A stretch of DNA of 13,125 bases from assembly GCA_002342255.1 (NCBI GenBank), contig DDPP01000034.1, forward strand, positions 17,587-30,711, written 5' to 3'. This document shows, piece by piece, positions 3,155 to 5,739 of the stretch. Below the pieces are notes generated by a model. The model searched no databases and had not been told where the DNA came from. It saw only the letters and a program-made list of their open reading frames with translations. The position numbers were made by a program, and so were the translations under genes. Origin of the DNA: Micrococcales bacterium UBA2465. Lineage in GTDB: Bacteria; Actinomycetota; Actinomycetes; Actinomycetales; Microbacteriaceae. Numbering within the stretch: the stretch's first letter is position 1; every line of letters starts with the position of its first letter.

Positions 3155-3230
3155 TCCTCGGTAGCTCAATTGGCAGAGCAATCGGCTGTTAACCGATAGG
3201 TTCTTGGTTCGAGTCCAAGCCGGGGAGCCA
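3155..3230 (+). tRNA. tRNA-Asn (GUU)
   Basis: A 76-nt cloverleaf can be folded by eye. The acceptor stem TCCTCGG pairs with CCGGGGA (one U-G pair) and the discriminator is G73. The D arm is GCTC...GAGC. The anticodon stem ATCGG/CCGAT encloses the loop CTGTTAA, with anticodon GTT at 3188-3190. The T arm is CTTGG-TTCGAGT-CCAAG. The CCA tail is encoded (3228-3230). It lies between the dnaG operon and the kinase-like gene. No convincing terminator separates it from the next coding region, which starts only 26 nt later. Confidence 0.97.
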
Positions 3231-3256: not shown

Positions 3257-4510
3257 ATGTTTATTTGGATTCGCGACCAAAAGTGGCTCCCAGCCAGCTA
3301 TGTTTCAGCAGCACTGGTTTTCATCTGCCTAGGCATCGACCTTTTCACCGAAAGTTATTTAGCCCTAATTAGCAGCGCATTGCTGTGTGGTTCAATTGCC
3401 TTTTCTCGCGCCTTACCTTGGCTAGCCATTGCACTTAGTTCAGCAGGTCTAATTACCGCCATTTACTTTGGGTTGCAACCCCAGGTATCTGGAGTTGGTG
3501 CGCTGATTACTCTGCTTATTCTTTCAGCTTTCGCGAATCCGGTTCAACGACGAGTTGGGTTTGGCCTAGTGCTGAGTCTTACTGCTTTACAAATCGGCTG
3601 GTTTGTTCAAAATCTAGACATCCAGGAGAAATTTCTAGGAGTCGAATTGCCTTCTGGTGAGGCTAAATTCGTGGTCACCATTTTGGGCTGTTTGCTTGTC
3701 CTTTCTTTGGGTGTTAACTCTTGGATGCTGGGTAGGTGGTTGTATACCAGGATTACTCACGTAGGCACCGGTGTTGATGTATCGCGTTTAGAAAGTCAGT
3801 TGGTTGCAGCTCAATTTTCGGTTGCTGAGCAAGATCGACGCTTAGGAATAGCTAGAGACGTTACCGACTTACTCTTAGATAATGTGAGTTCAACTATGGT
3901 AACTGCGGAATCCGGTAGTTACTCTGCAAAGAGTGACCCAACAGTTGCACCAAGAATTTTGGAAACTGTAATCAATGGTTTAAGAACATCTTTTGCTGAA
4001 ATCAGGAGACTTAGCGATTTGCTCGGTCTGAGTGACACTAACGCGGTAGCCATGCCTGGTTTACGCGATGTCAACTCTTTATTTGTCGATTATCGCAGTT
4101 ACGGCTATCTAGTTAATTTCAGAGAAAGCGGACAGGCAATCAAGCTAAGTAGTGGTGCGGAGTTGGTCATCTATCGGTTGCTATCAGAGTCACTGGAGAA
4201 CATTAGAAAACACGCGCCGGTTGGAACAGGTGTCGATGTTGACTTCCTGTGGCAAGAAACAGCCTTTCAAATTGTAATCAAAGATAACGGCGAAGAGATG
4301 CGTCGAATTTTGAATAGTGATAGTAATGGTTACGATGTCACCGCCGATCAAAAAGCACTAACTGAAAGAATCTCAGGCCCGGGTCTTAAAGTTATGCAGG
4401 AGCGAGTGACATTGTATGGCGGGATTGTTGAAGTTGCCAGGGTACCAGGAGTTGGCTTCACGGTTTCGGCGTCATTCCCAAACATCGCTCAACAGTCCAG
4501 AGGTAACTAG
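3257..4510 (+). CDS. Membrane sensor histidine-kinase-like protein lacking the phospho-acceptor His
   Basis: A 417-residue protein built like a NarX/DesK-type sensor kinase. About six hydrophobic helices lie between residues 12 and 158 (roughly 12-30, 35-50, 53-72, 80-97, 101-118, 137-158). A dimerization helix follows (about 176-215), then a GHKL ATP-binding domain (about 295-410). The ATP-site boxes are recognisable: N-box around E311 and N315 (LLSESLENIRKHA), G1 box D343-N-G345, and G2 box GPGLKVMQERV (374-384). The HisKA_3 motif usually reads IAR-E-L-H-D; here it is IARDVTD, with T203 (codon ACC, 3863-3865) in place of His, and residues 176-215 contain no His. The second G1-box Gly also appears replaced (E347). 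Autophosphorylation by the usual route therefore looks impossible, although the frame is intact. It precedes the regulator gene by 2 nt. AGGCAGG at 3247-3253 is a weak, close ribosome-binding site. Confidence 0.85.
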   Translation: MFIWIRDQKWLPASYVSAALVFICLGIDLFTESYLALISSALLCGSIAFSRALPWLAIALSSAGLITAIYFGLQPQVSGVGALITLLILSAFANPVQRRVGFGLVLSLTALQIGWFVQNLDIQEKFLGVELPSGEAKFVVTILGCLLVLSLGVNSWMLGRWLYTRITHVGTGVDVSRLESQLVAAQFSVAEQDRRLGIARDVTDLLLDNVSSTMVTAESGSYSAKSDPTVAPRILETVINGLRTSFAEIRRLSDLLGLSDTNAVAMPGLRDVNSLFVDYRSYGYLVNFRESGQAIKLSSGAELVIYRLLSESLENIRKHAPVGTGVDVDFLWQETAFQIVIKDNGEEMRRILNSDSNGYDVTADQKALTERISGPGLKVMQERVTLYGGIVEVARVPGVGFTVSASFPNIAQQSRGN

Positions 4511-4512
4511 CC

Positions 4513-5187
4513 TTGGCTAAAATCCTGCGCGTTGCTTTGGTTGGTGGCCATGAAACTATTCGTCAGGGTCGAAGAGATTACCTTGAAGCGAATGGAGAAA
4601 TACAGATTGTGCATAACTCTGATGGTTTTGGAATTCAAGCACAGGATATGTTGTCCCTGAATTTCGATGTTGCAATTCTCGAACAGAGACTGCCAGCAAC
4701 CACGGCTTTCGCTTTAATTAGTGCATCACATGCCTTAGCTAGAGTCACCTCTGAAGAACTGGGTAGGTTTCTGGTCTCTGCTTATTACTCAGAGCTTTCG
4801 CTACGATTGAGTGCAATTGAGGCGGGTGCCGTGGATACAGTCTTTGTCATGGACGGACTCGAAGTTCTAAAAAACCGAGTTGAAGCCTGCGCCGATCCCC
4901 AAGCTGATTTCGGAATAAGAGAGATTTTTAATCAGATACCAAAGTCCAAGGTTTCAGAAGCCGAATTTTCCAGCGCTTCAGTTGCGCTGGATACTTTAGA
5001 TGTCAAAGAGGCCAATATCATTCGTGCCTTTTGCGAACTAAAGACGGATGCGCAAATAGCTCAGGTGGCTCAGGTGCCAAAACTCAAAGTTAGAAATACC
5101 ATTCGTAAAGTGCAAAACCTGTTGATGTTAGAAACTAGGTCTCAGTTATTACTCAAGCTATCTCGTTTCGGTGCATTAGCCCTCTAA
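4513..5187 (+). CDS. NarL/LuxR-type response-regulator-like protein with degenerate receiver
   Basis: A 224-residue, two-domain protein. The receiver-like domain (about 4-125) aligns with NarL-family regulators: LRVALVGGHETIRQG against the usual LRVLLVDDHxxxRxG, FDVAILEQRLP against xDVVLMDxxMP, and AIEAGAVDTVFVMD against the AGAxGFLLKD segment. The acidic pair is G11-G12, the phospho-acceptor Asp is E57 (GAA, 4681-4683), the conserved Thr is S89 and the conserved Lys is absent (V112/M113). A LuxR-type helix-turn-helix follows (about 160-220: LDVKEANIIRAF...TDAQIAQVAQVPKLKVRNTIRKVQ), so DNA binding may be kept. It starts with TTG 2 nt after the kinase-like stop, with AGAGG (4498-4502) as a ribosome-binding site. 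The 3' end overlaps def. Its targets are unknown; the adjacent genes are candidates. Confidence 0.85.
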   Translation: MAKILRVALVGGHETIRQGRRDYLEANGEIQIVHNSDGFGIQAQDMLSLNFDVAILEQRLPATTAFALISASHALARVTSEELGRFLVSAYYSELSLRLSAIEAGAVDTVFVMDGLEVLKNRVEACADPQADFGIREIFNQIPKSKVSEAEFSSASVALDTLDVKEANIIRAFCELKTDAQIAQVAQVPKLKVRNTIRKVQNLLMLETRSQLLLKLSRFGALAL

Positions 5188-5739
5188 TTGCTCTTCACCG
5201 GGCAGCCAGCTCAGACCTGGAACACCCCAACCATTATCTTGAATTGCATGCTGAGCATCACTGCGATGTGGCTCTGCTAGACGGTCAACGTAAAGTATTC
5301 CGTTGAGGTGATCGAATTCGTGCTGGAAAATCCTGGCAAACCAACCCTCAGCTTCAATGTGAACTGGGTTTTGCTGAAGGTCCAGACCAGTTAGGACCGC
5401 CTTTTCAGCTCGCCTAATCGGGAATCGCTCACCAGGCACCGACAAACAACCCTCTGCTTCGGTTTCCCAGTCAGGTTCGCCCTCGGGTATTTCTGAAAGT
5501 TCAAGTGTCGGATTTATAACTACACCTCGCTGGTGAGTCCCATCAGCTAATTCCCAGTTATAGACAAAGACGCGTAAGTTGACCCCAACCTGAGGGGCGG
5601 CTAGGCCAACTCCTGGAGCTTTGTCCATGGTCTCATACATGTCTTCGACCAATTCCATCAAATCATCGTCAAAAGCTGTAACTTCTAACGCTTTTTGATG
5701 TAAAACTGGGGTACCTGTGATCACTATTGGTCTAATCAT
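5176..5739 (-). CDS. def: Peptide deformylase
   Basis: This enzyme removes the N-formyl group from nascent proteins and uses a bound metal. All three family motifs are present in the 187-residue protein: GVGLAAPQVG (43-52, with Q50), EGCLSVPG (96-103, metal ligand C98) and QHEFDH (139-144, ligands H140 and H144, catalytic E141). The N-terminus MIRPIVITGTPVLHQKA is typical, supporting the ATG at 5737-5739. The C-terminal extension after HLNGILYVDRL is of the actinobacterial kind. The gene stands alone without fmt beside it. Its stop codon lies inside the 3' end of the convergent regulator gene (12-bp overlap). A -10-like TAAATT ends 6 nt before the ATG, which suggests a leaderless mRNA. Confidence 0.97.
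   Translation of the reverse strand: MIRPIVITGTPVLHQKALEVTAFDDDLMELVEDMYETMDKAPGVGLAAPQVGVNLRVFVYNWELADGTHQRGVVINPTLELSEIPEGEPDWETEAEGCLSVPGERFPIRRAEKAVLTGLDLQQNPVHIEAEGWFARIFQHEFDHLNGILYVDRLAEPHRSDAQHAIQDNGWGVPGLSWLPGEEQLEG

Follow-up and report, generated by a model that had tools for sequence, protein, structure and literature searches.

The stretch of DNA analysed here (the window, 13,125 nt) comes from Micrococcales bacterium UBA2465 of the family Microbacteriaceae (GenBank assembly GCA_002342255.1, contig DDPP01000034.1, positions 17,587 to 30,711 of the forward strand). Its plus strand carries two adjacent genes for a two-component pair that appears to have lost the residues of phosphotransfer, namely a histidine kinase-like membrane protein (3257–4510, 417 aa, ATG start) and a regulator-like protein (4513–5187, 224 aa, TTG start). 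The two genes are 2 nt apart and sit between a tRNA-Asn(gtt) gene (3155–3230, plus strand), which ends 26 nt upstream of the kinase gene start, and the def gene (5176–5739, minus strand). An initial annotation, made from the sequence alone, had proposed both open reading frames (ORFs) and their close adjacency, and the coordinates bear this out.

The kinase-like protein resembles HisKA_3-type histidine kinases, as indicated by profile matches and by an AlphaFold2 model (mean pLDDT 74.6). Its predicted membrane sensor part (approximately aa 10–167; 3284–3757, plus strand) comprises six helices in the model and has a weak, full-length match to DUF7134 (E 0.043). A DHp helical hairpin follows (approximately aa 172–262; 3770–4042, plus strand), supported by the sub-threshold profile match and the model, and then a HATPase_c ATP-binding domain (4151–4480, plus strand) with the N-box residues Asn315 and His319 and with Gly345, Gly374 and Gly376. 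Against Pfam, HATPase_c scores above its cut-off (E 7.1e-9) and HisKA_3 just under it (E 1.6e-4, 22.6 bits versus a cut-off of 24); among the relatives, L055 and L059 exceed the HisKA_3 cut-off and L005 reaches 23.5 bits. DesK is the nearest solved structure by sequence and also the best structural match of the core fold. Its phospho-His aligns with Thr203 of the window protein (3863–3865, plus strand; motif IARDVTD), and Asp208 (3878–3880, plus strand) is found at the His+5 position, which is Gln193 in DesK. By these signatures the protein is a putative pseudo-histidine kinase, with a DesK-like core devoid of the phospho-His.

As for the regulator-like protein (4513–5187, plus strand), a Pfam profile search of the window sequence gave no match. 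Among solved structures, DosR/DevR is the closest in sequence (E 1e-4), and a Foldseek search with its AlphaFold2 model (mean pLDDT 93.2) returned VraR, LiaR and NarL as the best matches, DesR being also among them. The alignment with DosR/DevR places Gly11-Gly12 (4543–4548, plus strand) at the Mg-binding DD pair and Glu57 (4681–4683, plus strand) at the phospho-Asp, and the alignment with a canonical NarL-type regulator places Val112 (4846–4848, plus strand) at the conserved Lys. The phosphorylation residues DD, D, T and K of the NarL/FixJ type are thus GG, E, A and V in this protein. A LuxR-type helix-turn-helix (HTH) is visible in the model (approximately aa 162–219; 4996–5169, plus strand), with six residues invariant across 46 aligned rows (L162, V193, T208, R209, Q211 and L212). 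The modelled fold, a receiver joined to a LuxR-type HTH with the phosphotransfer residues gone, is that of a candidate pseudo-receiver transcription factor. Hence, two claims of the initial annotation stand: neither partner has its phosphate-carrying residue (Thr203 for His and Glu57 for Asp, in addition to the Gly-Gly pair and Val112), and the ATP-binding and DNA-binding parts are retained, as the ATP boxes, the receiver fold and the HTH are present.

These replacements are shared by close relatives. A protein search yielded 273 kinase homologues with E up to 0.001, the best 120 of which are considered here, and 101 listed regulator homologues; the proteins in both sets are at least 44% identical to those of the window, mostly over almost their full length. 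Among the best 120 of 273 kinase homologues, the His position is occupied by Asn (96), Thr (18), Ser (5) or Ala (1) and never by His, and the His+5 position by Glu (110) or Asp (10). For the regulator, residues were counted in the 96 homologues with at least 200 residues, hereafter called full-length. The acidic pair is GG in all 89 that have letters there, the other 7 having a gap, and the Lys position is Val (66), Ile (25), Leu (4) or Met (1), with no Lys in any of the 96. Position 57 has Glu in 60 of them and Asp in the other 36. The loss of the receiver Asp proposed in the initial annotation consequently holds for the window but is not uniform. At least four changes between Glu and Asp are needed on a quick tree of the 96 regulators, which argues that position 57 is not a kept phosphorylation site, though the residue is always acidic. 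Since no His is found in the listed kinases, and no acidic pair or Lys in the full-length regulators, the loss of phosphate chemistry is, as far as these sequences tell, inherited. It also exceeds what would be expected by chance, given that in the accessible part of a survey (PMC12632262) only 0.3% of HisKA_3 domains (56 of 16,025) are without His and 2.0% of receivers (3,111 of 152,269) without Asp, versus no His in the best 120 of 273 kinases and no Lys in the 96 regulators here. Sequencing error was discarded as an explanation, each window protein belonging to a cluster of 9 member sequences.

The genus, one of freshwater bacteria, comprises 67 genomes, 57 of which have a kinase match at E up to 1e-60; 55 of these loci were examined (G339 and G358 were left out). 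No His occurs at the His position of the 55 kinases (Asn in 26, Ser in 17, Thr in 12). The regulator gene adjoins the kinase gene at 54 loci, and the 55th (L119) ends at a contig edge. With first-start ORF calls, the distance from kinase stop to regulator start ranges from −26 to +26 nt in 53 of the 54, the remaining one (L003) being an ORF-start overcall. An intact acidic pair and the Lys are each missing from all 54 genus regulators, and Asp57 is retained in 40 of 54, i.e. in 6 of 12 on the window's side of the genus and in 34 of 42 others. The 12 window-side loci, found by genome scan in records titled Micrococcales, Rhodoluna or Auritidibacter, all have the regulator beside the kinase, the regulator of L012 being distant (E 4.5e-30); the two loci from records titled Rhodoluna have kinases with 50–56% identity. 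In these 12 metagenome-assembled genomes (MAGs), the ATP-box residues Asn315, Gly345 and Gly374 are kept throughout and Gly376 in 9. The search for the pair beside tRNA-Asn and def in related genomes, as suggested in the initial annotation, thus found the kinase in 57 of 67 genus genomes and the pair at a contig end in one more. Among the 10 genus genomes without a kinase match, we found no assembled locus that lacks the pair. True absence from these 10 genomes was therefore not retained: in one (G343) the pair lies at the contig end, in three the contig breaks off at def, and in the remaining six no def with the window-locus neighbours was seen (three have a weaker def match with no other window-locus gene in the 1.5-kb surroundings, and three have no def match).

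Concerning the flanks of the pair, the 3' ends of the convergent regulator and def genes share 12 nt in the window (5176–5187). Several relatives (L055, L058, L059 and others) have two genes read as AzlC and AzlD between regulator and def, which are missing in the window. A tRNA-Asn gene is present on 53 of the 55 genus loci examined. The estimated kinase start lies 19–67 nt past it in 38 of these 53, at 1 nt in one, and in the other 14 the ORF is overcalled and starts within the tRNA gene. The tRNA-Asn and the kinase gene may share a common transcript.

The proximity of the tRNA gene is relevant to a different view of the pair, in which the regulator is a constitutive transcription factor set by its amount, the kinase acts elsewhere or as a scaffold, and their adjacency is a relic. 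Genes that closely follow tRNA-Asn, and may share its transcript, would suit such a regulator, as would a position 57 that is acidic in 96 of 96 full-length close homologues. Control by expression level has moreover been proposed as one model for the CmrT pseudo-receiver, according to the accessible part of a review (PMC12632262). A relic, on the other hand, is hard to reconcile with the state of the genus, where a regulator accompanies the kinase at 54 of the 55 loci examined (the other one ends with its contig) and the two genes overlap or are a short distance apart, and with kinase dN/dS ratios of 0.03–0.04 in the four least saturated pairs of loci. We regard this view as unlikely, albeit worth keeping in mind.

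The history of the loss could be followed in the wider family. A search of 299 family genomes gave a match at E up to 1e-12 in 238, and 51 kinases beyond the genus were examined, taken from the top of the list. They are found at the same kind of locus and are mostly of about 300 aa; the loci with wide flanks display the order dnaG, dehydrogenase, tRNA-Asn, kinase and def, complete or in part. At 9 of 14 loci of large genomes, a canonical NarL-type regulator is present upstream of the kinase. The His position of the 51 kinases is His in 34, Gln in 13 and Gly in 4. These family kinases are thus like that of the window in place and in an alignable DHp-CA region, but unlike it in that most keep the His (34/51, with Gln or Gly in 17/51) and in that no two-domain regulator was recognised directly after them. 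In 13 of 51 the kinase is instead followed by a recognised single-domain-like receiver that keeps Asp and Lys (13/13) and mostly an intact acidic pair (10/13), three of these ORFs being long overcalls. The 17 kinases with Gln or Gly (among L063, L066, L067, L070, L072 and L123–L159) are on several branches, and a receiver was recognised after only one of them (L129). At the same locus, the L156 kinase (G042) has the His, and no receiver was recognised after it. We also considered whether the membrane part of the window kinase derives from the canonical kinase found nearby in relatives with large genomes; the hhalign comparison (probability 82%, 15% identity, 62 versus 9 sequences) is suggestive only, and this origin was not adopted.

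A quick maximum-likelihood tree was calculated from 115 kinase rows with the phospho-site column omitted. The 64 kinases with Asn, Ser or Thr form one side of a single branch (SH-aLRT 100), and at least five changes between His and non-His are needed over the whole tree; L104 and L119 are long rows that meet on it, and their placement is unsure. Outside the window's side, all 43 genus members examined have Gln at His+5 despite the loss of their His, as though a phosphatase-type motif had been retained. On the window's side, this residue is Glu in 10, Asp in 1 and Gln in 1 of the 12 MAGs, the Gln being that of L012, the outermost member. Similarly, 32 of the 42 regulators beyond the window's side have Asp as the first acidic residue, and all 11 of L001–L011 have Gly there. 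These residue distributions and the tree suggest that the loss began with His, Lys and the second acidic residue, and that the window's clade subsequently lost the phosphatase-type Gln and the first acidic residue as well. The initial annotation had assumed a loss on both sides at once. This does not stand, as every genus member examined lacks His, Lys and the second acidic residue, whereas the first acidic residue (32/42), Asp57 (34/42) and the His+5 Gln (43/43) persist outside the window's clade and have been lost or altered within it.

Such persistence raises the question of a residual phospho-chemistry, with the kinase acting as a phosphatase or with another donor or residue (acetyl phosphate, Glu57 or another His) taking part. 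The Gln and Asp57 retained by other genus members would fit, and so would His168, which is kept in the 12 window-side MAGs and in all listed homologues (best 120 of 273). Nevertheless, His168 is upstream of the DHp hairpin and varies among other genus members (29/43). In addition, the window has Asp at His+5 and neither the acidic pair (which is GG) nor the Lys, and none of the 54 genus regulators has an intact acidic pair or Lys. Residual chemistry of this kind is very unlikely in our opinion.

Selection was estimated by dN/dS (Nei-Gojobori) in the four least saturated pairs of loci, i.e. those with kinase dS up to 1.5 (L056-L057, L106-L107, L106-L108 and L107-L108). The ratio is 0.03–0.04 for the kinase and 0.02–0.08 for the regulator, two of the latter values being rough (dS above 2), and 0.04–0.06 for the AzlC-like neighbour in the three pairs that have it. 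The related pairs evolve under purifying selection. In the window's clade, the calculation was confined to pairs with sufficient 4-residue words in common. Synonymous sites there are near saturation, the regulator gave no finite ratio, and the two finite kinase values among the pairs listed are 0.18 (L003-L008) and 0.17 (L004-L010). The initial annotation had named confinement to one genome with relaxed selection as the outcome that would speak against a working pair; the ratios of 0.02–0.08 in the four pairs are far from it. Decay of a single genome is ruled out by the conservation and the dN/dS within the genus. A pseudogene pair decaying under relaxed selection would find some support in the kinase of L119 (G349), which is without N- and G-box residues, in the divergence of some HTHs, and in the near saturation of synonymous sites in the window's clade. 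It is hardly credible in view of the low ratios in the four genus pairs, of the kinase values of 0.17–0.18 in two window-clade pairs, and of listed homologues that remain at least 44% identical and mostly near full length. Altogether, the loss of the chemistry, the co-inheritance of the two genes and constraint within the genus are well supported.

We then asked what other two-component systems these genomes contain. Over its cut-off, HisKA_3 has six matches in the 12 window-side genomes, all to this kinase, which ranks first in 11 of the 12; for G002, only an unrelated weak match was listed. In four further genomes, this kinase alone exceeds the cut-off (4/4). HisKA matches number 2–4 in each of 16 genomes, and PF00072 receivers over the cut-off 4–8 per window-side genome. 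Elsewhere in genomes of the window's clade, there is a NarL-type pair with a regulator that, as judged by eye, has kept its phosphorylation residues (L183, L184). In L183, L184 and L185, a gene read as an RNA methyltransferase has a NarL-type regulator and an apparently His-bearing kinase as neighbours. With other canonical systems present (HisKA, PF00072 and the NarL-type pair), phosphotransfer as such persists in these cells. A second HisKA_3 kinase as the true donor was considered and rejected: the weak matches in G006, G009 and G011 fall in a gene recognised as release factor 1, and in G022, G216 and G166 the weakly matched kinase has an apparent His and a regulator of its own next to it.

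The pseudokinase might alternatively modulate another, canonical system, as the ChrS pseudokinase with HrrS or, reportedly, RocA with CovS. The regulator, for its part, may form heterodimers with a canonical one. The intact-looking NarL-type pair of the window's clade (L183, L184) and the 2–4 HisKA matches in each of the 16 genomes could provide partners, and the ChrS pseudokinase is a precedent in the accessible text of PMC9491836. As no other HisKA_3 kinase passes the cut-off in the 12 window-side genomes, we hold a role of this sort to be improbable; the HisKA_3 model misses the L183 and L184 kinases, so that partners remain conceivable.

The window proteins lack the residues required for autophosphorylation on His, for phosphorylation of the receiver and for a phosphatase action through the His+5 Gln. 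That the pair is functional and independent of phosphotransfer between its two proteins is, in our judgement, very likely. We consider it probable that it is a conserved, functional two-component pair that signals without phosphotransfer, most likely by direct contact; for the contact mechanism itself, which is argued from analogy, our preference is slight. The membrane protein would still dimerise via its DHp helices and still bind ATP, and its shape, depending on a signal or on the nucleotide, would be read by the receiver-like domain of the regulator. That domain would dock on the DHp as in DesK:DesR, and docking would sequester or remodel the regulator, thereby altering its binding to DNA.

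DesK-DesR is an apt model insofar as the core of the window kinase is closest to DesK by both sequence and structure and DesR is among the structural matches of the regulator. In the accessible part of PMC5231405, DesK and DesR dock via DHp helix 1 and receiver helix 1, and DesK Gln193 (His+5) adjoins the modified Asp54 of DesR. The resemblance ends at the chemistry: DesK has His188 and Gln193 and DesR has Asp54 (PMC5231405), whereas the window has Thr203, Asp208 and Glu57, and GG for the acidic pair. In helix 1 of the regulator, R17 and R21 are invariant across 46 aligned rows.

Several observations weigh against signalling by contact in a conserved pair. R17 and R21 occur also in the aligned canonical regulator, which makes the helix-1 argument weak, and both contact and ATP binding are inferred indirectly. 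The four dN/dS pairs represent two sister lineages (L056-L057 and L106-L108) and not the window's own clade. The regulators of L109 and L110 have only 127 aa and no HTH, with full-length kinases, and the HTH has diverged in several sister lineages. The L119 (G349) kinase, without N- and G-box residues, may either be unable to bind ATP or represent a copy in decay. Lastly, the distances of kinase and regulator among 32 genus loci are correlated given the AzlC-like protein (partial r 0.61, a value that none of 500 permutations attained), hardly more than those of kinase and AzlC given the regulator (0.55). Distance correlation was therefore rejected as a sign of co-evolution, as it is not specific to kinase and regulator.

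Each half of the pair belongs to a known kind. Pseudo-receivers such as ChxR, NblR, BldM, WhiI, RitR, FrzS and CmrT likewise combine a receiver fold with an output domain and phosphorylation-free activity, but here a partner kinase gene is adjacent and its product is itself without His. Pseudo-histidine kinases such as DivL, RocA and the ChrS pseudokinase also have a kinase scaffold without autophosphorylation and are still able to signal. RocA is said to act with CovS, a phosphorylating system. In the accessible text of the sources, the ChrS pseudokinase (PMC9491836) and DivL (PMC9491836, PMC12471899) act on phosphorylating systems, unlike the window kinase, whose partner is without the normal phosphorylation residues. 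According to the accessible part of a 2025 review (PMC12632262), the switching of pseudo-receivers is a mystery, and nearly all of those characterised are orphans without a known input; its non-orphan atypical regulators are FrzS and CmrT, the latter sitting with an otherwise normal pair. The same part describes phosphorylation-independent modes, e.g. allosteric coupling by sensor kinases, as conceivable for pseudo-receivers but not proven (PMC12632262). Our literature search, whose coverage mostly did not extend to subscription papers, found no report of an adjacent pair degenerate on both sides, and such a pair appears to be new. It is an evenly balanced proposition that this is the first cognate pair in which all phosphoryl chemistry was lost on both sides (His, phosphatase Gln, acidic pair and Lys) and which its lineage has kept as a working switch whose signal passes solely through contact driven by the nucleotide or the membrane, with intermediate steps of the loss represented by the other genus members.

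Rhodoluna lacicola is naturally transformable, and gene inactivation by double recombination has been described for it (PMC11577799, accessible part). As two of the loci come from records titled Rhodoluna, the question looks directly testable in that species if it carries the pair. The locus also displays a stepwise loss of phosphotransfer among relatives. As for pseudo-receivers, a candidate input protein here adjoins one of them and is itself without the phospho-His, and signalling by contact only could thus be studied apart from phosphotransfer.
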